Positions 17,073-49,172 of a stretch of 64,000 bases of DNA are shown here, in pieces; positions within the stretch are counted from its first letter, which is position 1; every line of letters starts with the position of its first letter. The DNA lies in the NCBI GenBank assembly GCA_025058315.1, contig JANXET010000001.1, positions 62,001-126,000 of the forward strand. The letters run 5' to 3'. A program made the position numbers and the translations under genes. The notes under the pieces were generated by a model, which worked only from the letters and a program-made list of their open reading frames with translations, was not told where the DNA came from and made no database searches. This DNA is from Candidatus Bathyarchaeota archaeon (GTDB taxonomy: Archaea; Thermoproteota; Bathyarchaeia; Bathyarchaeales; Bathycorpusculaceae).

Positions 17073-18179
17073 TCACGTGAACTCCTTCATTGTCTTAGCG
17101 AAATCCTCAAAGAAGAAGTACGTGTCATGCGGGCCAGGCCCCGCCTCCGGATGATATTGAACTGCCTTTATGGGTAGTTCCTTATGCTTCACGCCTTCTA
17201 CAGTATGATCATTCAAGTTAATCTGAGTCAACAATAAGCCAGCATCCTTAAGAGAGCCCTTATCAACAGCAAACCCGTGGTTCTGAGTTGATATGAAAAC
17301 ACGGCCCGTTTCAAAATCCTTTACTGGCTGGTTTGCGCCTCTATGACCGAATTTCAGTTTATAGGTCTTTGCACCTAAAGCTAGTGATATTATCTGATGC
17401 CCAAGACAAATGCCATACAGAACAACTTGCCCAGCTAATTTCTTTACGGTTTCAATGGTTTCTCTGACTCTTATAGGATCGCCAGGGCCGTTAGAGATTA
17501 GCACACCGTCAGGCTCATATTCAAGGATCTCACTTGCAGTGGTGTTATACGGAACTATTACTATATTCGCAAAATTTTTGAGTAGACGTATTATACTCCA
17601 CTTCACCCCACAATCAATCAAAACAACATTCAAATTATGTCCAGTTTCTATAATTTCATGCTCTCTAGTACATACTTTTGGTACAAGGTCAAGTTCGGTT
17701 ATTGCAGGCTGCTTTTTCGTTTTTTCAATCAAATCATGGATATTTGGTTCATTCTTCCCCTCGTAAACCACCAAGGTGCTTTTCATCGTTCCGTAAATTC
17801 TCGTCTTTTTAGTAAGTAGCCTCGTATCCAAGCCTTGAATGCCGGGAATACCATACTCTTCCAGAAACTCAGGTAGAGATTTCTCAGAGCGCCAGTTACT
17901 GGGCGTTTCACAGACTTCTCTGACTACGAAACCCTCTACTTTTATTCCATCTGATTCAAAATCTTCTTTGCATACTCCATAATTGCCAATAAGCGGATAA
18001 GTCATCATCAAAATTTGTCCAGCATAAGAAGGATCTGTCAAGTCCTCCACATAGCCAGTCATTCCGGTGTTGAAGACGAGTTCGCCTTGAGCAGTACCCA
18101 CGGCCCCAAAACCTTCACCAAAGAAGAAAGACCCATCCTCTAGGACAAGAACCGCTTTTTTATGGTCTCTTTTATTCAA
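17073..18179 (-). CDS. carA: Carbamoyl-phosphate synthase, small (glutaminase) subunit
   Basis: CarA cleaves glutamine and channels ammonia to CarB. The N-terminal domain shows [14 protein letters not shown] and [17 protein letters not shown]. The C-terminal class-I glutaminase has its nucleophile cysteine in [10 protein letters not shown] and the His-Glu pair in [11 protein letters not shown]. The 368 residues match the family. It lies three bases after argH and directly before carB. Confidence 0.97.
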
Positions 18180-18182
18180 CGA

Positions 18183-19712
18183 TCATAAACCCTCCTCACC
18201 TAGAGGGCTCAAATTTTTAAAGCTTTCGGGGGGTATAGCCTCAGAAGATAGGTGAGATCTTACGATTGAATTCAGTCTTTTGAAAGCTTTTCTAATTTTA
18301 CGACGCATCCTTGCGAGATTAAGCTTTGCCGAAGCCAAAATTTCTTTACGGTTACTAATCATTCTTTCAACTTCAGCAGGCGAAGGCCCCCCACGTACAC
18401 TATAATTTTCAACAATTTTCGCCAGATTCACAGCGTTTGTGACATCTCCATTTTTAACATTCAATTTTAAACCAAATTTTTCTGCGGTTTTATTCAAAAG
18501 CTCTGCATTCACATCAGTAAGGGGGGAGTTGCCAGCAAGTAATTCTCTCACAAGTGAGCCAACAATTCTATGGGATGTTCTGAAAGGAACCTTGTATTTT
18601 CTGACAAGCATATTTGCAAGCTCTGTGGCTGCTAAGAATGTGTAACAATCCTTAAGAATGGATTCTTTATTAACATTTAGACCTGCAATGAGGCTGGAGA
18701 GCATTTCAACAGATTCCTGAATAATGTCTAGGGATTCCCATAGAACCGGAGTAACTTCTTGGAAGTCTAAGTTGTAACCTGACGGAAGAGCCTTTAACAT
18801 GGAAAAGGATGATACAAAGTTACCGAGAATTTGGCTCATTCTTGCACGAATTACTTCAAGAAGATCCGGATTCTTTTTTTGAGGCATTATACTGCTAGTT
18901 GACGAGAATTCGTCAGGAAGCTCAATTAAACTGAAATCTGATGATCCAAAGAGTATTAAGTCCTGAGCTAAACGACTTATGTCAACGGCCGTTACCGCCA
19001 TGGCGGCTATAGTTTCAACTACAAAATCTCGACTTCCAACAGCATCTAAGGAGTTTTCCACGATTCCCTCGAACCCCAGAAGCTCGGCAACTAGTTCCCT
19101 GTTTACGGGAAAGCTTGAAGTTGCCAAGGCCCCGGCACCCATCGGACATAGGTTAACCCGGGTATAGACCTCCTTTAAGCGTTGTAGGTCCCTACTGAAA
19201 CAATCAACAAAGGACAGAAGATAGTGTGCGAACGTTATGGGTTGGGCGGGTTGCATGTGAGTGTATCCTGGGAAGATTGTGTTTATATGGCGCATAGCAA
19301 GGTTAAGGAGTGCATCTTGAAGATTAACAATTGAATCCATTACATCGATTATTCTTTCGCGAAGTTCCATTCGGATAGCTGTTGCAACTTGGTCATTTCG
19401 ACTTTTTGCAATGTGAAGGTTGCCACCTACCTCTGGACCGCATAGTTCTAAAACTTTCTCCTCCAAGAGCATATGGACGTCTTCCACTAGAATGCGAGAT
19501 TTAACTTTTGGTTTTATTTTATTAAGAGCTTGTAGAAGCTTATTTCCGACATGTAGTTCGATTATTTTTTGCTCTGTAAGCATTATCACATGGGCTTGGT
19601 TTATTTTTATGATGGCCCAAGCTAGTCTCCGATCGCTTTGAAGGGAAGAAGTGAATTTAACTACTTCCTCTTTTACCTTAGAAATTCTTCCTCCTTGTAG
19701 AAGTTTAGACAT
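18183..19712 (-). CDS. argH: Argininosuccinate lyase
   Basis: The enzyme cleaves argininosuccinate to arginine and fumarate. The superfamily signature appears as STSSIMPQKKNPD near residue 275, with the substrate segments KSRNDQVATAIR and GYTHMQPAQPITFAHY upstream. At 509 residues it is somewhat longer than the usual 460, with extra residues at the C-terminus. Its start overlaps the argG stop by eight bases. It is second in the leftward arg-car operon. Confidence 0.96.
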   Translation of the reverse strand: MSKLLQGGRISKVKEEVVKFTSSLQSDRRLAWAIIKINQAHVIMLTEQKIIELHVGNKLLQALNKIKPKVKSRILVEDVHMLLEEKVLELCGPEVGGNLHIAKSRNDQVATAIRMELRERIIDVMDSIVNLQDALLNLAMRHINTIFPGYTHMQPAQPITFAHYLLSFVDCFSRDLQRLKEVYTRVNLCPMGAGALATSSFPVNRELVAELLGFEGIVENSLDAVGSRDFVVETIAAMAVTAVDISRLAQDLILFGSSDFSLIELPDEFSSTSSIMPQKKNPDLLEVIRARMSQILGNFVSSFSMLKALPSGYNLDFQEVTPVLWESLDIIQESVEMLSSLIAGLNVNKESILKDCYTFLAATELANMLVRKYKVPFRTSHRIVGSLVRELLAGNSPLTDVNAELLNKTAEKFGLKLNVKNGDVTNAVNLAKIVENYSVRGGPSPAEVERMISNRKEILASAKLNLARMRRKIRKAFKRLNSIVRSHLSSEAIPPESFKNLSPLGEEGL

Positions 19713-20916
19713 TTCTTCCGCCTTTAAGAGAATTTTTTAGGGCATTATATACCGTTGTAGGCAATCCCCAAAGTTCTATGAAGCCTTCAGCATATACTTG
19801 ATTGAAGCTTGTTTTTATGTTATAGTTTACTAGGTTTTGGCTGTAAATGGAGAACTTTGATGAGCGGCGGACAACACGTAATCCGCCCTTGTACAGTTTC
19901 ACATGGACTTTTCCATTAACACGTTCTTGCGTCTTATTTATGAATGCTTCCAGGTCTTCCTTCAGAGGGTCTAACCATAGGCCAGCATAAGCTAGAAAAG
20001 TCCATTGTGAATCGATTTGCTGTTTAAATAGAACTTCATGCCGTGTCAGAACCATCTTTTCGAGATCTTTATGCGCCTCTAAAATAACCGTTGCTGCAGG
20101 ACACTCGTAAACTTCTCGGGATTTAAGCCCAACAAGCCTGTCTTCGATATGGTCTATGCGGCCTACACCATTTCTTCCAGCGATTTTATTAAGCTCTCCG
20201 ATAAGTTTTACAGGATCTAATTCTTCTCCGTTTATAGCAATAGGAACCCCGTTTTCGAAGTCTATGGCAACATACTCTGGTTTTTCTGGCGCTTTTTCTG
20301 GTGAAACGGTCCACTCGAAAACCTCATCTGGGGGTTCATGATCAGGATCGTCCAGAATACCGCATTCAATAGCTCTGCCCCAGAGGTTTTGGTCGATGCT
20401 GTAGGGCTTATCTGAACAGGGTACTTCAATGCCTCTTTCCACAGCGTATTTTATTTCTTCTTCTCTTGTTAAACCCCATTCACGAACAGGGGCTATAATT
20501 TTGAGGTGGGGGGCTAGGGACTTTATCGTCACGTCAAAGCGGACCTGGTCGTTACCTCTTCCAGTGCAACCATGGGCAACGGCGCTTGCACCTTCTTTTA
20601 ACGCAATTTCTACAAGTTTCTGAGCAATCAAAGGCCGTGATAAGGCACTACTTAAAGGATATTTTCCCTCATATAGGGCGTTTGCTCTTATTGCCGGGTA
20701 AACATATTCTGTCACAAACTCCTTTTTTGCGTCTATGGAATAATGCTTTTTGGCGCCTACAGCTTTAGATCTCTTTTCGATCTCTTTCATGTCATCAAGT
20801 TGTCCTACATCTACAGTTACTGTTATCACTTCTGCACCATATTTCTCCTGTATCCATTTTGCCATCACAGATGTGTCTAATCCGCCTGAGTATGCTAATA
20901 CGACTGTTCCGGTTAT
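19705..20916 (-). CDS. argG: Argininosuccinate synthase, with likely ATA start
   Basis: ArgG joins citrulline and aspartate using ATP. The P-loop-like motif VVLAYSGGLDTSVMA must be translated for activity and is encoded at 20904-20860. No ATG, GTG or TTG lies in frame between the upstream stop (20958-20956) and this motif. The ATA at 20916 gives I/M-TGTVVLAYSGGLDTS, the standard N-terminus, and stands seven bases after a perfect GGAGGAGGT (20932-20924). The first ordinary start (GTG 20868) would delete the ATP site. The resulting 403 residues match the family. An error of ATG to ATA is the alternative. Confidence 0.88.
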   Translation of the reverse strand: MTGTVVLAYSGGLDTSVMAKWIQEKYGAEVITVTVDVGQLDDMKEIEKRSKAVGAKKHYSIDAKKEFVTEYVYPAIRANALYEGKYPLSSALSRPLIAQKLVEIALKEGASAVAHGCTGRGNDQVRFDVTIKSLAPHLKIIAPVREWGLTREEEIKYAVERGIEVPCSDKPYSIDQNLWGRAIECGILDDPDHEPPDEVFEWTVSPEKAPEKPEYVAIDFENGVPIAINGEELDPVKLIGELNKIAGRNGVGRIDHIEDRLVGLKSREVYECPAATVILEAHKDLEKMVLTRHEVLFKQQIDSQWTFLAYAGLWLDPLKEDLEAFINKTQERVNGKVHVKLYKGGLRVVRRSSKFSIYSQNLVNYNIKTSFNQVYAEGFIELWGLPTTVYNALKNSLKGGRNV

Positions 20917-21047
20917 TGCGCGTACCTCCTCCTGAATTTCTTTAGAACCGATTTTTAGCTATCTTTTAAACTTTGTGACTAAAATGTTACATAGTAAGCT
21001 TTAAATGTTCAAACTGATACAGCCCCCACGAACGAGGCAAAAATTTG
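20917..21047. promoter_or_regulatory. Divergent promoter region, argG operon and ACT-domain gene
   Basis: Leftward, a minus-strand AGTTTAAAAG box (20973-20964) would place transcription near 20942, ten bases before the GGAGGAGGT of argG. Rightward, GCTTTAAATG (20998-21007) would start a transcript near 21030, just before the ACT-domain gene. The shared region suggests common control, for instance by the ACT-domain protein, but no operator repeat is evident. Confidence 0.4.
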
Positions 21048-21626
21048 ATGACGACTGCCCAGAGAGTTAGAGATTACTTAAAGGATAGGCCTTACATACT
21101 GGAAGCTTTAGAAAAGAGTATAGTGAACCTAAGCGAGCTTTCAAGACAAATACAGAATGAATTGAAGATAGAGAGTTTACCCGCTGTGAAGGCTGCTTTA
21201 AGGAGATTTAAGGAGGAGCTGCAAAAGAGAAAACATAGGAGAGAGGAAAGAGTTCTTAAGCTTTTGAAAGAGAGCACAATAACTCTTCATGATGGTAAGG
21301 CTGTTGTGGTCACAACTAAGCCGACTGAGATTGAGGACAAGATAAGAGTGAGTTTAGAGGGCAAATTTGTTTATCTAGTGGAGAAAAATACACTGAATAA
21401 GATTACCAGCGCCCTACAAAAGCATACGGATTGTGTGATGATCATTATACATTCCCCAACTGAACTGGAAGCTACGCCAGGAGTTGTAGCATTCTTAACA
21501 ACACTTTTAGCAGAACAAAACATAAACATTATAGAGTTTATATCTTGCTGGACAGATACAATAATTGTGGTTGACAAGAAGGATAGTTTGAAGGCGTATG
21601 AAATTCTATCCAGCGTAGTTGGTTGA
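21048..21626 (+). CDS. ACT-domain protein with helical N-terminal region, possible regulator
   Basis: The first 85 residues are predicted helical and charged (LSELSRQIQNELKIESLPAVKAALRRF), resembling a winged-helix-like DNA-binding region. Residues about 110-192 look like an ACT ligand-binding domain (ATPGVVAFLTTLLAEQNINIIEFISCW). The family function is unknown to me. It sits between the arginine operon, from which it diverges, and the LysW operon, on which it converges, so an amino-acid-sensing regulator is a reasonable guess. The ATG at 21048 directly follows an in-frame TTG at 21045. Confidence 0.75.
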   Translation: MTTAQRVRDYLKDRPYILEALEKSIVNLSELSRQIQNELKIESLPAVKAALRRFKEELQKRKHRREERVLKLLKESTITLHDGKAVVVTTKPTEIEDKIRVSLEGKFVYLVEKNTLNKITSALQKHTDCVMIIIHSPTELEATPGVVAFLTTLLAEQNINIIEFISCWTDTIIVVDKKDSLKAYEILSSVVG

Positions 21627-21631
21627 GTATT

Positions 21632-22741
21632 CTAAGCTGACTCATGAGATTCGATCAGTTTGTTAATTGTTCTTTTATAAATTTCTATGCTGTCTAAATA
21701 CTCTCGGACAACTATATACTCATTTGCAGTATGACTTAATGCAGGATCACCTGGCCCATAAGTCACCACGGGCACATGGGTTTCTCTTCCAAAAATATTC
21801 ATATCACCAGTTCCAGTTTTGCGCAGAAGCATTGGCGTTCTACGTGTAACTTCTCTTATTGAACGTGAAAGTGCTTTAACGACTGGTGATTTAGCATCAG
21901 CCTCGAAGGGCTCCACAAAATCTATTACCTTAACTTTCACAGAAACTTTTGGGTTTGTTTTCTGATACTCCTCAATCACTTTATGGACTTCATTTATAAC
22001 TTGTGCAACGCTTAAATTGGGAGGGATGCGAAAGTCAAGGATTATTTGGCATTTCGAAGGCACTGTAGAGTTTCCTTTACCTCCTCTAATTCCGGTTAAG
22101 CAAGAGTCAAGCGTGTAGAAATGTCCACTATTCCCGCCCATTTTAGTAGCTGAACTGCTGATCTTTCGAATTTCATTCCATATTTCGATCGCCTTCTCGA
22201 CAGCACTTTCATAAAGCCAATGCGCCGCGGAATGCCCACCAATTGTCTTACAGGTTATTTCTATACGCAAGTCGCCTTTGTACCCGATTGTTATTTTATC
22301 AACACCGCTGGGTTCACCAAAAATGGCGTAGTCAACAGCAACCTTTTCTTTTAACAAATTTTTCACACCTTTGCTTGCACCTTCCTCGTCTACAACACTG
22401 GCAACTACTATCTTTGCTGTTTTTTCTTCTATGAATGCTGACGCTGCGATAATTAGTGCTGCCAACGATGCCTTAGCATCGACAGCCCCCCTTCCATATA
22501 TTTTGTTGCTTTCGATTCTTACAGGTATAAAGCCCGTTACGGTATCCATGTGTCCACAGAGCAATATGACAGGAGAACCTCTGCCCGCTTCGCCTATGAC
22601 ATTCCCAACATTGTCTTGTCTCACTTTAAATCCGTGTCTCCGCATTTCTTCGTATAAAAATTGTGAGATTTCCTTCTCTTTTCCTGATGGACTGTAGATG
22701 TCAAGCATTTTTGTAAGAAGGCGTACTGGATAATCTGTCAC
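21632..22741 (-). CDS. lysK: [LysW]-lysine / [LysW]-ornithine hydrolase
   Basis: This M20-family zinc peptidase releases lysine or ornithine from the LysW carrier. Metal-site motifs are CGHMDTV, GRGAVDAKASLAA, VVDEEGASKG and AIFGEPSG, in the correct order. A GTG start follows AGGAGGAAGAAA. It overlaps the end of lysJ by 41 bases, unusually long for this window, so the two are translationally coupled. It is the last gene of lysWXYZJK. Confidence 0.93.
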   Translation of the reverse strand: MTDYPVRLLTKMLDIYSPSGKEKEISQFLYEEMRRHGFKVRQDNVGNVIGEAGRGSPVILLCGHMDTVTGFIPVRIESNKIYGRGAVDAKASLAALIIAASAFIEEKTAKIVVASVVDEEGASKGVKNLLKEKVAVDYAIFGEPSGVDKITIGYKGDLRIEITCKTIGGHSAAHWLYESAVEKAIEIWNEIRKISSSATKMGGNSGHFYTLDSCLTGIRGGKGNSTVPSKCQIILDFRIPPNLSVAQVINEVHKVIEEYQKTNPKVSVKVKVIDFVEPFEADAKSPVVKALSRSIREVTRRTPMLLRKTGTGDMNIFGRETHVPVVTYGPGDPALSHTANEYIVVREYLDSIEIYKRTINKLIESHESA

Positions 22742-23921
22742 TTTCTTCCTCCTTCAAGATTGAATCAAGCACCGAGATAACTTGATCTATCTGATCCTTC
22801 TCTATAACTAGAGGAGGCAGGAACCTTAGAACGTTTTTACCAGCATCTAGAACTATGACCCCGCGGTCAAGAGCCTTCATGATAATAGATAAAACTTCAA
22901 ATTTGAATTCAACGCCTAACATCAGTCCTAAACCGCGGACTTCACGGATTAACCTATGTTTAGACTGTAGCTCCTGAAGTCTTTCCTTGAAATATTTACC
23001 AAGTACGGCAGCCCTTCCAGGAAGGCCTTCATCTAAAAGCACATCTATCGCAGCGCAGGCAGCTGCACAAACTAAGGGATTTCCGCCATAAGTTGTTGAA
23101 TGTTCTCCAATCTTAAGGCATTCCATAATATAGTCTCTTGCTATTGTTAGGCCTATAGGAAGCCCGCCTGCAACCGATTTTGCTGCGCAGAGAATATCGG
23201 GGGATATGTTCCAATGTTCACAAGCAAATATTTTTCCAGTTCTGCCGAATCCAGTCTGGACTTCGTCGAGAATTAACAGTATGCCCTTCTCCTTGCAAAT
23301 CTCATCTAGACCTTCCATAAATCCTTCAGGAGGAACTCTGATGCCGCCCTCGCCTCTTATGGGTTCCACAATTACAGCGGCTGTTCTATCGGTTAAAGCT
23401 TCCTTAATTTTCTCCAGATTATCTGGGGGTACATGCTTAAAGTCAGGGACTAAAGGCTTGAAGGGATCACGGTACTTTCTATCCCAAGTGGCGGACAATG
23501 CACCCATAGTTTTCCCGTGAAAAGCACCCATCATGGCAATTATCTCAGTCTTGCCTGTGAATTTTCTTGCCAATTTTATAGCACATTCGACAGCTTCAGC
23601 TCCACTGTTTGACAGAAAAACCTTGTTTAATCCTTTTGGGGCTATGCTTACTATTTTCTCCAGGAGCTTTGCCCTAACATCGTTGTAGAGAGACCCGTGA
23701 CAAGATATAAGACGTTCAGCTTGCCTTTTTATCGCCTCAACGACCTTTGGGTGACAATGCCCCACAACACATGTTCCATAACTTCCACCGCAGTCAATGT
23801 ATTCCTTACCGTTTACATCCCAGACTACGGCGCCTTTACCATGCGTAATAACTACTGGCCTTTTCGCATAAACATTGGCCATGAACTTATCTTCTGTTTC
23901 CATGATTAATTTTTCACTCAC
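22701..23921 (-). CDS. lysJ: [LysW]-aminoadipate semialdehyde / glutamate semialdehyde transaminase
   Basis: A class-III PLP aminotransferase acting on carrier-bound semialdehydes. SNSGAEAVECAIKLARKFTG, LILDEVQTGFGRTG and the catalytic lysine in ILCAAKSVAGGLPIG are intact. The GTG at 23921 overlaps lysZ by eight bases; an ATG six codons later (23903) is an alternative start. About ten C-terminal residues lie beyond the usual family end, in the overlap with lysK. Confidence 0.94.
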   Translation of the reverse strand: MSEKLIMETEDKFMANVYAKRPVVITHGKGAVVWDVNGKEYIDCGGSYGTCVVGHCHPKVVEAIKRQAERLISCHGSLYNDVRAKLLEKIVSIAPKGLNKVFLSNSGAEAVECAIKLARKFTGKTEIIAMMGAFHGKTMGALSATWDRKYRDPFKPLVPDFKHVPPDNLEKIKEALTDRTAAVIVEPIRGEGGIRVPPEGFMEGLDEICKEKGILLILDEVQTGFGRTGKIFACEHWNISPDILCAAKSVAGGLPIGLTIARDYIMECLKIGEHSTTYGGNPLVCAAACAAIDVLLDEGLPGRAAVLGKYFKERLQELQSKHRLIREVRGLGLMLGVEFKFEVLSIIMKALDRGVIVLDAGKNVLRFLPPLVIEKDQIDQVISVLDSILKEEESDRLSSTPSYKNA

Positions 23922-24723
23922 GCGTTATTACCGTCCCGCATGAATGTCTTATTGCAGAGGATACTGGAGAATTACAAAGGCCATTAGCTATTATAGCTTC
24001 GGGCACGCCCATGTTAACTGCTTCCATTGCTGCGTACACTTTGGTAATCATTCCTGGACCTATCTTCGTAAGAATCTTTTCAGTTTCAGATACAGTAAGC
24101 CGCGGAATAACTTCTCCTTCCAGTATTAGTCCATCAACATCTGTGAGTAGCACCAACCTGTCGGCTTTAATGAAACCCGCTACATAAGCCGCAGTCCTAT
24201 CAGCATCCACATTTAAAGGCTCATATTCTTCACTCAAGGCAACCGGAGCGATAACCGGGATGAATCCATTTTCTAAAATGATTTTTATCGGATGCGGATT
24301 TACTTCACTTATTTTACCACTGTATCCGCCATCTATAACCCTTTTTCGTCCACTATCGTCAACCACAATTATCTTCTTCTTCCTGTTTGCACGTATAAGA
24401 GCCCCATCTAAGCCTGAAAATCCAAACGCAGGGACACCGGCGCTTTGAAGCGCTAAAACCACTTGCTTGTTGATTTTTCCGGCAATAACCATCGTGTATA
24501 TTTCTACAGTTTCTCTGTCCGTATATCTGCTTCGGAACCCCTCAGGAGATGTGACAAATCTCTGTTCTTTACCGAGCTTAGAGGCTATTTCGGTTACTTC
24601 ATCGCCGCCGCCGTGAACAAGGACTATAGTGTTCTCCTGAAGGAGACTTTTTAGGTCTGGAATGAGCCCTGAGGATGTGATCTCCTTCGCAACATTTCCC
24701 CCTATCTTTACCACAATCAACAT
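23914..24723 (-). CDS. lysZ: [LysW]-aminoadipate / [LysW]-glutamate kinase
   Basis: An amino-acid kinase of the ArgB fold that phosphorylates the carrier-bound side chain. KIGGNV and VLVHGGGDEVTE near the N-terminus, NVDADRTAAYVAG near residue 180 and LLTDVDGLILEG near 200 are diagnostic. I chose ATG 24723, seven bases after GGTG and giving MLIVVKIGGNV. The in-frame start at 24747 adds eight atypical residues inside lysY. Confidence 0.93.
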   Translation of the reverse strand: MLIVVKIGGNVAKEITSSGLIPDLKSLLQENTIVLVHGGGDEVTEIASKLGKEQRFVTSPEGFRSRYTDRETVEIYTMVIAGKINKQVVLALQSAGVPAFGFSGLDGALIRANRKKKIIVVDDSGRKRVIDGGYSGKISEVNPHPIKIILENGFIPVIAPVALSEEYEPLNVDADRTAAYVAGFIKADRLVLLTDVDGLILEGEVIPRLTVSETEKILTKIGPGMITKVYAAMEAVNMGVPEAIIANGLCNSPVSSAIRHSCGTVITRE

Positions 24724-24727
24724 TTTG

Positions 24728-25780
24728 CTACACCGGATGGAATCCAACGCTTTCTAGTCCAGTTTTCTCGTCAACACCTAACATTAAGTTTAGACATTGA
24801 ACTCCTTGACCAGCAGCTCCCTTCATCAGATTATCTATTGCTGAAAAAACGACTAGACGTCTAGTGCGCGTGTCCAATTCAAATCCAATGTCGCAGAAAT
24901 TTGTTCCTATTACTATTTTGGGATCGGGCAGTTGATGTAACCCCTTTCTATATTTTACAATACGTATGAAAGGTTCCTTATCATAAGATAAGCGGAAAAT
25001 CTTCCAAACTTCGCTCAAAGGCAATTCTTTAGTGAGAAACACATGGATCGTTGAGAGGATGCCGCGCACCATGTTAACCGCATGAGGAGTGAATGAAACG
25101 GTTAAAAAGCTGCTGGATAGTAAATTAAGCTCCTGCTCAATTTCGGCGATATGCCTATGATCCACAACATTGTAGGGTCGAACGCCTCCAAATCTTTCAG
25201 GATGATGTGAAGCAAGAGAAGGCTTAGCTCCAGCCCCTGAAGATCCAATTTTTACATCGGCAATAATCCGGTTCTTTTCTATTAAGTTAGCCTTAACTAG
25301 AGGTGCTAAACCGAGTATCGTGGCTGTAGACATGCAGCCCGGGCAGGCTACTAGACGAGCATTTTTTATTTCTTCACGATGTAGCTCAGGTAAGCCATAT
25401 ACAGCTTCCTTTAGTAGCTCAGGATAAATATGTTCCCATCCATACCATTTGACATAATCTTCAGGGTTTTTTAATCTAAAATCAGCACTCATGTCGATTA
25501 CTTTTATGCCCATTTCAAGAAGTTTGTGAACTATTTTAACGGCGCTTCCATGGGGAACAGCCGTAAAAACAAGATCACAATTATTTTGAATATAGTTCAA
25601 GTTTAGAGGAGTGAACTTAAGTTGTGTTAATCCACGAAGGTTTGGATGAACCGTGAATATATATTCGCCAGCATACTTATCTGAAGTTGCGAGGACAACT
25701 TCTACCGTTGGATGGAAAAGTAGCAGTCTCAGCAGTTCTCCGCCAACATATCCAGAAGCACCAATTATTCCAACTCTCAT
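24728..25780 (-). CDS. lysY: [LysW]-aminoadipate / glutamate 6-phosphate reductase
   Basis: An ArgC-type NADPH dehydrogenase. GIIGASGYVGGELLRLL is the nucleotide site, the catalytic cysteine lies in LVACPGCMSTATILGLAPL near residue 150, and KIGSSGAGAKPS and HRHIAEIEQEL follow. ATG 25780 (MRVGIIGASG) stands five bases after GGTGA; upstream in-frame starts at 25792 and 25801 lack such a site. The 350 residues match the family. Confidence 0.94.
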   Translation of the reverse strand: MRVGIIGASGYVGGELLRLLLFHPTVEVVLATSDKYAGEYIFTVHPNLRGLTQLKFTPLNLNYIQNNCDLVFTAVPHGSAVKIVHKLLEMGIKVIDMSADFRLKNPEDYVKWYGWEHIYPELLKEAVYGLPELHREEIKNARLVACPGCMSTATILGLAPLVKANLIEKNRIIADVKIGSSGAGAKPSLASHHPERFGGVRPYNVVDHRHIAEIEQELNLLSSSFLTVSFTPHAVNMVRGILSTIHVFLTKELPLSEVWKIFRLSYDKEPFIRIVKYRKGLHQLPDPKIVIGTNFCDIGFELDTRTRRLVVFSAIDNLMKGAAGQGVQCLNLMLGVDEKTGLESVGFHPV

Positions 25781-25793
25781 TTTCCTCACCATG

Positions 25794-26972
25794 CTAATCA
25801 AAGATGCTTCTTGCGCATTTTAGCAGATATTCTGCAATGTTCGCTCCTGTAGCAAGTCTTGTTTGTTCCCAAAATTCAGGACATGAATTTGCTTCATGGA
25901 ATAGTATCTCGTGCTTACCTTTCTCAACACTTTCATTAATTATTTTCTTAATATTCTCATACGCTTCCAAACTTTTATACCTCCTGAAACTCTCCTCCAA
26001 GTTTTTATTCCACTCTGGAAAAGCCTTCTTTTTTGAAGGGTCACTTTTAACTTTTTTCACTTCTTGAAAAGCTTTGGCGAGTTTTTTAAGCTCGGCCATA
26101 ACATAAGTTTCGTTATTAAATTTGTTTTTATCCATCGGAACCATTGCATCTAGAGCTAAAACCCATGCGTCACATTTTCCGCTTATTATCACACCGCATC
26201 TTGAGGCTAATTCTCGGACATATAATGGGAGATCCACGTCTAGAACAAAGTTTCCCAGCGCGGTATTGGTTCTAAAGTCCTTGAGCCCCGCCCTGGCCAT
26301 AGCTTTAGGATGACAGTAAGGAGCCTTACCTTTCTCCTTTGAGACTATAATTCTTAGATCATAGAACCATTTTTGGATAAAATCTTGAGCAAGTATTCCC
26401 GCAGGGTTTATTATAGATGATTTCATAGACTTTACAGCGCTTAAAAGTTCTTCACGGTTTTTTGCAAGCTTAATACCTCTACCATGGGTTCCAGCGTCAG
26501 GCTTAATGACAATTGCCCCATCAAGAGATTGCTGCAACAGATCAACAATCTCTTCCTCGTTATGAATGCTTTTTCCATGCTTTGTTCTTTCTCTGGGATT
26601 ACATGGGATAAAAACCGTTCTAGGAACTTTAATTCCGCTTTTACTTAGGTGAAGCAACGTTCGAAATTTGCTAAAACATAAAAACTCAACATGTAGAGGA
26701 TTCAGAGCAGGCTTGTTTATCGCTTCCAGAAATGTAGCCGCCATAAGCCTTCGATTCTTACTTTGAACCCTATTTAATACAACTTTAATATCCTCCTTTA
26801 TTAGACCTGTATAATTATTTCCTTTACTTTGCACTTTGTATCCTTTATGATCTATTGTTATGGAAATTTTCCGGAAGGGTATGTAAACTAGATCTACACC
26901 CAACTCCTGGGCAGTTTGTTTAATTCCTATTTCATCCGTCTCGAGGTAATCACAAAGCAATCCAATAATCAT
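25794..26972 (-). CDS. lysX: LysX/ArgX-type [LysW] amino-acid ligase with an extra C-terminal insertion
   Basis: An ATP-grasp ligase of the RimK group, placed between lysW and lysY where LysX belongs, so it should attach aminoadipate or glutamate to the LysW C-terminus. AIVIKPDAGTHGRGIKLA, DLRIIVSK and FRTNTALGNF align with LysX motifs, and EILFHEANSCPEFWEQTR corresponds to the LysX EVN segment. It has 392 residues against about 280-290 for ordinary LysX; most of the extra is a charged, helical stretch at about residues 275-350 between the last two conserved motifs. Its early domain is also divergent. Confidence 0.82.
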   Translation of the reverse strand: MIIGLLCDYLETDEIGIKQTAQELGVDLVYIPFRKISITIDHKGYKVQSKGNNYTGLIKEDIKVVLNRVQSKNRRLMAATFLEAINKPALNPLHVEFLCFSKFRTLLHLSKSGIKVPRTVFIPCNPRERTKHGKSIHNEEEIVDLLQQSLDGAIVIKPDAGTHGRGIKLAKNREELLSAVKSMKSSIINPAGILAQDFIQKWFYDLRIIVSKEKGKAPYCHPKAMARAGLKDFRTNTALGNFVLDVDLPLYVRELASRCGVIISGKCDAWVLALDAMVPMDKNKFNNETYVMAELKKLAKAFQEVKKVKSDPSKKKAFPEWNKNLEESFRRYKSLEAYENIKKIINESVEKGKHEILFHEANSCPEFWEQTRLATGANIAEYLLKCARSIFD

Positions 26973-27044
26973 TTCTCAGCCTTCTTCTATAGAGCTAAAA
27001 TTGGAAATGAGACAGGGAGCTAGAGAGTTGGAAAACGGAGGTAG

Positions 27045-27221
27045 TTACTCTCCCCAATCCTCGCCCTCAAGCACCAGCTCCTTAACTTCCACAGTGCCTC
27101 CGTTCACTGTGACTATTTCGAGTTCAAGGCCGCAGCATGGACAGCTTAGAATTTCCCCTTGCATGACCTCTTCCGAGACGCTTAACTCTGAATCACAGTC
27201 AGGACATTTTGCAGTTTTCAT
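27045..27221 (-). CDS. lysW: LysW amino-group carrier protein
   Basis: This small acidic carrier of 58 residues has two CxxC pairs for zinc (CPDC and CPCC) and ends in the diagnostic EDWGE, whose terminal glutamate accepts the amino acid. ATG 27221 follows AGGTGA by eight bases; a longer in-frame reading to 27266 adds 15 residues with no carrier features. It heads the leftward lysWXYZJK operon. Only one carrier is seen, so it may serve both lysine and arginine synthesis. Confidence 0.93.
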   Translation of the reverse strand: MKTAKCPDCDSELSVSEEVMQGEILSCPCCGLELEIVTVNGGTVEVKELVLEGEDWGE

Positions 27222-27434
27222 CTCACAATTCACCTGGATTTGGGGTCTCTTTAGCAAGAAGCTCACTTTTAACTTTTATGGCTTAACTGTCACAAAGTAG
27301 AAACCTAATGTTCCAAACGATACAGACAAACGCTAGGAAAACTTGTATACAAAATACATGCTTAAATATGAGTAGGTGCGAGTTTTATGAAATATTAATC
27401 ACGAATGCAGACAGGTGTAGTGGTGACAAGAATA
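27222..27434. promoter_or_regulatory. Divergent promoter region, lysW operon and homoaconitase pair
   Basis: The gap between two diverging lysine-related operons contains a perfect 10-base palindrome TTGTATACAA (27343-27352), about nine bases before a TTAAATAT box (27362-27369) that could be the rightward TATA element. Leftward, CATAAAAGTTAAAAG (about 27278-27264, minus strand) may be the lysW TATA. The palindrome's place next to the rightward box would suit a repressor or the BRE region. GGTGA (27422-27426) is the ribosome-binding site of the next gene. Confidence 0.4.
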
Positions 27435-47400: not shown

Positions 47401-47706
47401 ATGTCTGAAGAAAAGCAAAAAAAGCTTGAAAAATCCAATGAAAGCACCGTCTTAATAGGCAAGAAGCCAATAATGAACTACGTGATTGCATGTCTAACCT
47501 TCTTCAACTCAGGGGCTAAGAAAGTTATGATCAAAGCTCGAGGGCGGGCAATTAGCCGAGCTGTAGATACAGTTGAATTACTGAGACGTGCATTTATCAA
47601 GGACCTTCAATTGCAAGACATCACAATAGGTACTGAAGAGGTGACACGTAGTAACGGACAGAAAACCAACGTTTCAATAATCGAAATCACAGTCACAAGA
47701 CCATAA
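47401..47706 (+). CDS. albA: DNA/RNA-binding protein Alba
   Basis: One hundred and one residues. STVLIGKKPIMNYVIACLTF holds the conserved KKP-x-MNYV segment with the acetylatable lysine, followed by VMIKARGRAISRAVDTVELL, the RNA/DNA-binding loop. Alba is an abundant chromatin and RNA-binding protein. AAAGGTGG seven bases before the ATG is a strong ribosome-binding site, and TTTATACTACC upstream may be the TATA element. Confidence 0.96.
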   Translation: MSEEKQKKLEKSNESTVLIGKKPIMNYVIACLTFFNSGAKKVMIKARGRAISRAVDTVELLRRAFIKDLQLQDITIGTEEVTRSNGQKTNVSIIEITVTRP

Positions 47707-47819: not shown

Positions 47820-49172
47820 ATGGGTGCAAATATATATCCCCGAATTATAGTTTCCCCACCTGGACCAAATGCACGTGAAATAGTCAAAAGGGATGTGAGT
47901 GTAGTTTCCCCTTCTTATTCACGTTTTTATCCATTAGTTATTAAAGCCGGTAAAGGTTGCATTGTGATTGACGTTGACGGTAATGAATACATCGACTTCA
48001 ACTCTGGATATTTATGTTTAAATGTCGGGCACTGCCATCCTAACGTGACTTCTGCTATAAAGAAACAATGTGACCTCTTTTTGCATTATTCTGCATCTAA
48101 ATTTTATTATGAAGAACTCGTCACCCTGGCCGAAAGATTAACTGAAATTTCTCCTATCAAATCTGGAAATAAAATCTCCTTTTGCAATAGTGGTTCAGAG
48201 ACCATCGAGACCGCCATCAAATTGATGAGATGGCATACTCGTAAGCCGCTTTTTATTGGCTTTATAAATGCTTTTCACGGCAGCATTGGCATGGGGGCTC
48301 TAGCTTTCACCTCAAATATGCCTGTTCAGAGGCGATATTTCTCTCCATTTATGCCCGGAGTTATTAATGTTCCTTATCCCTATTGCTACCGTTGCCCCTT
48401 CAAGCAAACATATCCCTCATGTCATTATTGGTGTGTAGACTTTATTGAGGAATTTGTACTGCAAAAATATGCTCCTCCAGAAGATGTTGCCGCCATCCTA
48501 TTTGAGACCATACAAAGCGAAGGAGGTTTAATAGTTCCACCGCCAGAATACTTCCAGCGGCTGAAGAAACTAGCTGACAAGTATGGCCTTTTACTTGTAG
48601 ACGATGAAATAAAAACGGGCGTCGGCAGAACTGGTAAATGGTTTGCAATAGAGCACTGGAATGTTGAGCCTGACGTTTTATGCACCGCTGATTCTTTAGC
48701 CTCCGGTTTACCGTTAGGTGCTGTAATAACCAAGGAAAAAGTCATGGATTGGGTAGGCGGCTCACATTCAAGTACTGTTGGCGGAAACCCTGTTGCATGT
48801 GCCGCGGCTCTGGCCGTAATTGATGTTATTCGTGAGGAAAGATTATTGGAAAACGCGACCAAACAAGGCACTTACATTATGAAGCGGTTGGAAGAATTGC
48901 GGGAAAGCTGTACTGTTGTAGGAGATATTAGAGGAAAAGGATTAATGTTAGGCATAGAAATTGTGAATGCCTATGAAAACAACAAACCATCAAAAGAAAA
49001 AGCTCATGAGATTATTATCCGTTCATGGAAACACGGTGTTATCCTGTCTTACTGTGGAGCTTCCACAGTAGTAATTGCTCCGCCGCTTAACATATCAAGA
49101 GATCTCGTTGATTCCGCGATGGATATAGTGGAAAATGTTGTAAAAGATGTCGAGAAAGAAGATAAAGCTTAG
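47820..49172 (+). CDS. Class-III aminotransferase-like protein lacking the PLP lysine
   Basis: The 450 residues align throughout with archaeal class-III aminotransferases and amino-acid racemases: GPNAREIVKRD, AFHGSIGMGALAF, the PYCYRCPFKQTYPSCHYWC insert and VDDEIKTGVGRTGKWFA. The catalytic-lysine segment reads VLCTADSLASGLPLGA, with Asp291 (GAT, 48690-48692) where the family has Lys. Other usual residues are changed too: EPIQGEGG reads ETIQSEGG, and DEVQTG reads DEIKTG. The ORF is intact. The nearby LysJ keeps its lysine. The protein may bind PLP without transamination or have another role. Confidence 0.88.
   Translation: MGANIYPRIIVSPPGPNAREIVKRDVSVVSPSYSRFYPLVIKAGKGCIVIDVDGNEYIDFNSGYLCLNVGHCHPNVTSAIKKQCDLFLHYSASKFYYEELVTLAERLTEISPIKSGNKISFCNSGSETIETAIKLMRWHTRKPLFIGFINAFHGSIGMGALAFTSNMPVQRRYFSPFMPGVINVPYPYCYRCPFKQTYPSCHYWCVDFIEEFVLQKYAPPEDVAAILFETIQSEGGLIVPPPEYFQRLKKLADKYGLLLVDDEIKTGVGRTGKWFAIEHWNVEPDVLCTADSLASGLPLGAVITKEKVMDWVGGSHSSTVGGNPVACAAALAVIDVIREERLLENATKQGTYIMKRLEELRESCTVVGDIRGKGLMLGIEIVNAYENNKPSKEKAHEIIIRSWKHGVILSYCGASTVVIAPPLNISRDLVDSAMDIVENVVKDVEKEDKA

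Follow-up and report, generated by a model that had tools for sequence, protein, structure and literature searches.

A class-III aminotransferase orthologue without its PLP Schiff-base lysine in several lineages of Bathyarchaeia

Annotation by homology treats class-III aminotransferases as working PLP enzymes. Inactive paralogues with the PLP-enzyme fold are known, including yeast Alt2, SPTLC1 and the ODC antizyme inhibitor, all of which arose as paralogues beside an active copy, SPTLC1 being the inactive partner of SPTLC2. In the ColD-type fold-type I dehydratases a His replaces the Lys, and the MocR/GabR regulators use the aminotransferase fold in sensing, together with an N-terminal DNA-binding domain.

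The window analysed here is a stretch of 64,000 nucleotides from a Candidatus Bathyarchaeota archaeon (genome G000, 1.3 Mb, 94% complete), and it encodes an aminotransferase-like protein that can be compared with each of these systems. Like Alt2, SPTLC1 and the antizyme inhibitor, the protein appears to be a retained, non-catalytic relative of a PLP enzyme; unlike them, the single orthologue itself has probably lost catalysis, and the window genome holds no close active copy. Whereas the ColD type has His for Lys, the 13 Lys-less copies that we found have D, N, G, S or E. The likeness to MocR/GabR lies in an aminotransferase fold with a putative sensing role, the difference in the domain content: PF00202 is the sole Pfam domain found in the window protein, which is without an N-terminal DNA-binding domain. 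Our search of the open-access literature brought up no paper describing a Lys-less lineage of class-III aminotransferases. The features needed first are the following.

47401..47706, + strand: Alba gene (PF01918), directly upstream, a conserved neighbour.
47820..49172, + strand: Lys-less class-III aminotransferase orthologue of 450 aa, identified by its PF00202 and NF004426/PRK05769 scores and its fold model.
48690..48692, + strand: codon 291, GAT (Asp), replacing the PLP Schiff-base Lys that is present in 106/106 Lys-type orthologues.

The reading frame is intact, with an ATG start and 450 codons. PF00202 (Aminotran_3) matches residues 37-440 with 378 bits (cut-off 30.5), and the best NCBIfam model is NF004426/PRK05769, the 'acetyl ornithine aminotransferase family', with 566.8 bits against a cut-off of 552; three other Lys-less copies (L051, L189 and L191) score under this cut-off, at 475, 524 and 456 bits. 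The window gene is orthologous to this family by sequence, by fold and, like most copies, by its place beside Alba, but has lost the Lys of the Schiff base, the two substrate Args and the Gln that contacts PLP. An AlphaFold2 monomer model made with 50 orthologues and relatives (pLDDT 93.9, pTM 0.92) predicts an intact fold, the best Foldseek matches being 9wr1 (alanine/serine racemase, TM 0.94) and 7vno (TM 0.95). These structures and 9wqz share the fold of the window protein at TM 0.94-0.95 and about 40% identity but are PLP enzymes with Lys, and the column of residue 291 is Lys in the aligned solved relatives 7vno (aminotransferase) and 9wqz (alanine/serine racemase). An earlier, sequence-only reading of this DNA had noticed an Asp where the family has Lys, and the observation holds against a comparison set of 106 distinct Lys-type sequences with identities of 53% or more; two base changes are needed to turn GAT into AAA or AAG. 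The same reading was right that the frame is full-length, that other motifs are changed, EPIQG to ETIQS (residues 229-233) and DEVQ to DEIK (262-265), and that a four-cysteine insert is complete (Cys 189, 192, 201 and 205).

To place this gene we searched 256 Bathyarchaeia genomes and read residue 291 in the matches. Among the matches listed, a Lys-type orthologue was read in 115 genomes and a Lys-less one in 13; the other 128 had neither, at least one of them (G054) having only a fragment that stops short of the site. Residue 291 is Asp in the window copy, Asn in G006, G194 and G195, Ser in G187 and G186, Glu in G188 and Gly in G196, G191, G192, G193, G213 and G210; it is His in none. The Lys-less copies are spread over six families. 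The window gene's own family (f1) has 2 Lys-less and 37 Lys-type genes among 90 genomes, and the other Lys-less genes fall in f15 (6/9 genomes), f12 (2/2), f13 (1/2), f18 (1/8) and f21 (1/7), five families in which no Lys-type orthologue was found among the matches listed. A scan of genome contigs, in which the closest relatives with a name are Candidatus Bathyarchaeota MAGs, read Lys at 78 of 80 loci and Asn at one (L051), with the site uncovered at the remaining one. In the genomes of the class, the paralogues (identity about 38-48%) have Lys wherever the site was read. Elsewhere in the phylum no Lys-less copy came to light with a pattern that recovers only 6/13 of the known genes: it matched 3/398 genomes, all of them known Bathyarchaeia. 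The sequence-only reading had asked whether the Asp is conserved in close homologues, and had named as its refutation an isolated case whose relatives all have Lys. Of the genomes examined, only that of the window has Asp, but 12 others are Lys-less too; 37 of the 39 orthologue-bearing genomes of the window gene's family have Lys, but the notion of a lone case fails for G006 in that family and for 11 Lys-less genomes in five other families.

Phylogeny places the Lys-less genes in two parts of the tree. This result was obtained both with all 78 rows and with 74 rows in which 15 active-site columns were masked and L233, L234, L235 and L236 were left out. The window gene and the Asn-bearing G006 gene nest inside the Lys-type genes of f1 (SH-aLRT 93 and 88) on a window branch about four times as long as those of its Lys-type neighbours (0.37-0.40 vs about 0.1), the remaining Lys-less genes are grouped elsewhere, and the starred branches force two changes. 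A single origin of the Lys-less genes was rejected by the AU test (p 0.02, delta lnL 39; 11 Lys-less and 63 Lys-type rows, masked), a result that rests on a quick tree in which long branches may introduce bias. L233 (G210) and L234 (G188) have long branches and their placement is unsure. The Lys was thus lost at least twice.

The loss of the Lys is accompanied by further changes in the active site. Ten site residues were mapped to human OAT (hOAT) from the residues described in PMC13327489, on spacing and not on an alignment of the human sequence; the spacings agree, 262-265-291 corresponding to 263-266-292, 152-155 to 177-180 and 234-262 to 235-263. The positions concerned, with the insert, are as follows.

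48282..48284, + strand: codon 155, Ser replacing the substrate-carboxylate Arg (hOAT Arg180); Arg in 106/106 Lys-type orthologues.
48384..48434, + strand: four-cysteine insert C189-x2-C192-x8-C201-x3-C205; all four Cys in 106/106 Lys-type orthologues.
48603..48605, + strand: codon 262, the pyridine-nitrogen Asp, retained; present in 106/106 Lys-type and 11/13 Lys-less orthologues.
48612..48614, + strand: codon 265, AAA (Lys) replacing the PLP-contacting Gln; Gln in 105/106 Lys-type orthologues.
48774..48776, + strand: codon 319, the PLP-site Thr at the phosphate (hOAT Thr322), retained here; Thr in 106/106 Lys-type orthologues.
49071..49073, + strand: codon 418, Val replacing the second substrate Arg (hOAT Arg413); Arg in 103/106 Lys-type orthologues (3 gaps).

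Eight positions (K291, D262, R155, F152, T319, G125, E229 and G233) are invariant in the 106 Lys-type rows. None of the 13 Lys-less rows keeps K291, R155 or D94 (the last missing through a gap in one row), R418 and Q265 have each gone in 12/13, and T319 has gone in 11/13, being retained only in the window copy and in G188; both substrate Args are gone in 12/13 copies, and at position 155 the replacement is Glu, a charge reversal, in 8/13. Other residues are kept: E229 in 12/13, H153, G154, E263, R270 and R371 in 13/13, and the four Cys of the insert in 13/13 (one residue is unread, X, in one copy). The window copy alters four of the ten mapped residues (R155S, Q265K, K291D and R418V), whereas each of the remaining Lys-less copies alters between five and nine; in the 106 Lys-type rows, none of the ten is changed in 78, one in 27 and two in 1. 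The window protein is changed at 16/130 near-invariant positions, 8/18 within one residue of a mapped site and 8/112 elsewhere (p 0.0002), and such enrichment around the site is found in 12/13 Lys-less rows (p 0.048 to 0.0002), the exception being L233 (G210; p 0.44). The catalytic residues have been lost in a coordinated way together with the Lys. Across the 13 copies residue 265 reads K, R, H, Q, E, E, E, E, Y, R, R, E and Y in the order in which residue 291 reads D, N, N, N, G, G, G, G, G, S, S, G and E; where residue 291 is Gly or Glu (7 rows), residue 265 is always Glu or Tyr, and the 6 rows that have Asp, Asn or Ser at 291 show K, R, H or Q at 265. This pairing would be compatible with a refilled pocket, but it tracks the clades and so gives no independent evidence for one.

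Two further observations were made. The paralogues L173 and L174 (G105 and G028) bear the Lys and have DEVK for DEVQ and QSDGG for QGEGG, so that changes at these two motifs can coexist with the catalytic Lys. A basic surface for nucleic acids was also considered and rejected, because the pI is not raised: against a Lys-type mean of 7.39, 11/13 Lys-less rows have a lower value, one has the same value and one a higher.

Codon-level constraint indicates that these genes are maintained. NG86 dN/dS is 0.15 for the Lys-less pairs G191/G192 and G187/G186 and 0.11 for G194/G195, with bootstrap ranges of 0.05-0.25 over the three, and 0.02-0.08 for the unsaturated Lys-type pairs, several distant pairs being saturated and without a dN/dS value. 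Maximum-likelihood codon omega is 0.088 for four f15 genes and 0.059 for the set of G194, G195, G187 and G186, compared with 0.038-0.063 in three Lys-type sets; the window gene's own value, 0.042, comes only from a three-gene set with long branches (the window gene, G006 and one Lys-type gene), in which the two Lys-less branches are the longest. With dN/dS or omega of 0.04-0.15, the Lys-less copies are no pseudogenes: selection maintains the encoded protein, with constraint somewhat relaxed in some copies. A frameshift or pseudogene in G006 was discarded as well, since the only interruption of that copy is a 10-N gap in the scaffold.

We therefore have good confidence, short of certainty, that the window gene encodes a pseudo-aminotransferase, an orthologue of the PRK05769 group that has lost the Schiff-base Lys, most of the substrate-binding machinery and part of the cofactor-binding machinery and has been selectively kept. 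From these residues we infer that ordinary transamination via an internal aldimine is absent, and the present function is very likely something other than transamination. The sequence-only reading had proposed a regulatory or non-transaminating PLP binder. With the usual internal aldimine presumably impossible, a role of that kind is supported, and PLP binding may persist in altered form: the window copy, whose pocket is the least degraded among the Lys-less copies, keeps the PLP contacts G125, F152, E234, D262, S318 and T319, and as the Gly of the phosphate loop, the Phe that stacks on the ring and the pyridine Asp are among these, it may still hold PLP or PMP, perhaps loosely and non-covalently. 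The Lys-less protein most likely works as a non-catalytic dimer with a remodelled pocket, which may bind a small ligand, and it may serve a partner as a scaffold or sensor; this scaffold or sensor dimer role is less certain than the loss of transamination.

A rival reading gives the protein an active paralogue of the same cell as partner. Besides the Lys-less gene, the window genome has two class-III genes, a more distant one and the following.

22701..23921, - strand: ArgD/LysJ-type aminotransferase with intact Lys, the nearest class-III paralogue in the genome.

Its neighbours read by eye as LysK, LysZ, LysY, LysX and LysW, and profile searches back the ArgD/LysJ and ArgC/LysY names. The whole run, 17073-27266, reads by eye as CarA, ArgH, ArgG, LysK, LysJ, LysZ, LysY, LysX and LysW, and it ends with a LysW-like carrier of 73 aa (27045-27266, - strand). 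In a hetero-oligomer the Lys-less protein could then be the inactive subunit, paired with an active paralogue, for example this LysJ/ArgD-type enzyme, an arrangement made conceivable by human OAT, whose active sites are formed by both subunits (PMC13327489). The distribution of ArgD-type genes is in keeping with it: such a gene scores over the cut-off in 8/13 Lys-less, 27/115 Lys-type and 92/128 other genomes, or in 11/13, 28/115 and 92/128 when two contig-end fragments and one match just below the cut-off are added for the Lys-less genomes and one more such match for the Lys-type genomes, and Fisher tests of Lys-less vs Lys-type genomes give p 0.007 (strict) and 3e-5 (extended), with relatedness not removed. 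However, the association rests on about two origins only, and relatedness could therefore produce it; G194 (80% complete) and G196 (90% complete) have no ArgD-type gene over the cut-off; the Lys-less and LysJ genes lie 24 kb apart in the window; and Thr is absent at position 319 in 11/13 Lys-less copies. We regard such a hetero-oligomer as unlikely.

The same genomes differ in the pathway itself. ArgC/LysY scores over the cut-off in 12/13 Lys-less genomes, the miss being the 80% complete G194, and, among 29 Lys-type genomes picked by their ArgD state, in 9/9 with an ArgD-type gene and 0/20 without; it is also present in 6/6 tested genomes without the orthologue. One Lys-type genome lacking ArgD-type (G176) has a weak ArgC/LysY match of 75 bits. 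Several of the Lys-type genomes without ArgD-type and ArgC/LysY are 95-100% complete. The class splits into lineages that bear the Arg/Lys pathway and lineages that are without it, and loss of the Lys appears to be associated with the ArgC/LysY pathway, although not independently of ancestry. A displacement scenario, in which the Lys-type gene carries out the LysJ/ArgD step and sheds its Lys once beside a true LysJ, was rejected in that form, because all 20 of the tested Lys-type genomes without ArgD-type are also without ArgC/LysY over the cut-off and have no such step to serve. A catabolic role suits the Lys-type enzyme, which is typical of lineages without this biosynthesis, and the Lys-less form is typical of those that have it.

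Another reading keeps the protein as a PLP or PMP enzyme that dispenses with the usual internal aldimine, in which the base or Schiff-base partner would be another residue, for instance K265. A His stands in for the Lys in some fold-type I enzymes (ColD). The window copy retains D262, F152, E234, G125 and T319, and its K265 occupies a PLP-contacting position, that of the Gln at the PLP O3' in Lys-type genes. The Lys of DEIKTG had been put forward as such a substitute by the sequence-only reading, but this is not supported: the sister gene of G006 has R at the equivalent position, and the other Lys-less copies have H, Q, E, Y or R. Nor is any Lys gained in common, as no column with Lys in <20% of Lys-type rows has it in more than 6/13 Lys-less rows. 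Columns 86 and 383, tried as gained Lys because they have it in 9/13 Lys-less rows, are Lys already in 37/106 and 32/106 Lys-type rows, so no new Lys is found there. With both substrate Args absent in 12/13 copies and the R155E charge reversal of 8/13 ill-suited to amino or keto acid substrates, continued PLP chemistry of this kind seems quite improbable. A decaying gene or an assembly error, for which the longer window branch speaks in so far as it shows somewhat relaxed constraint, is scarcely credible given the intact 450-codon frame, recurrence in 13 separate assemblies, omega of 0.04-0.15 and a conserved neighbourhood.

For the pseudo-aminotransferase that we favour, gene position offers some leads to a partner. 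In 9/13 Lys-less loci a same-strand Alba gene precedes the aminotransferase by 63-118 bp, as one does in many Lys-type loci, an arrangement that makes the window gene a syntenic orthologue of the Lys-type genes and, for the same reason, gives no explanation for the loss of the Lys. In G187, G186 and G188 (L245, L246 and L249; families f12 and f13) the Lys-less gene comes first in an operon-like run, 5-21 bp ahead of the next gene, that continues with an RNA_binding family protein, RNase P p30, Pop5, proteasome alpha, SBDS, Rrp4 and an RNase PH protein; these identities come from Pfam for G188 and one gene of G187, and by eye for the remainder of G186 and G187. Pth2 and TruD are divergent from the run. 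The head of an archaeal RNase P-exosome-proteasome operon is an unexpected place for any aminotransferase. The G213 locus has neither the Alba nor the RNase P-exosome arrangement. Alba and the RNase P-exosome operon are thus suggested as partner leads by gene position only. A more specific proposal, which we hold to be doubtful, is a metabolite-sensing subunit tied to RNA handling in Arg/Lys-prototrophic Bathyarchaeia: an amine or amino-acid-like ligand would sit in the remodelled pocket, whose charge is reversed in many copies, and nitrogen status would thereby be coupled to Alba or to the adjoining RNase P-exosome machinery.

Pseudoenzymes are a known kind; the Lys-less class-III aminotransferase lineage may be the new part. 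It offers a natural test of what a PLP fold may do without PLP chemistry, with no close active paralogue beside it. It also carries a warning for annotation, as ornithine, GABA or acetylornithine transamination in Bathyarchaeia should not be inferred from this gene. The apparent sorting of Lys-bearing and Lys-less copies by the ArgC/LysY pathway provides a concrete physiological lead.
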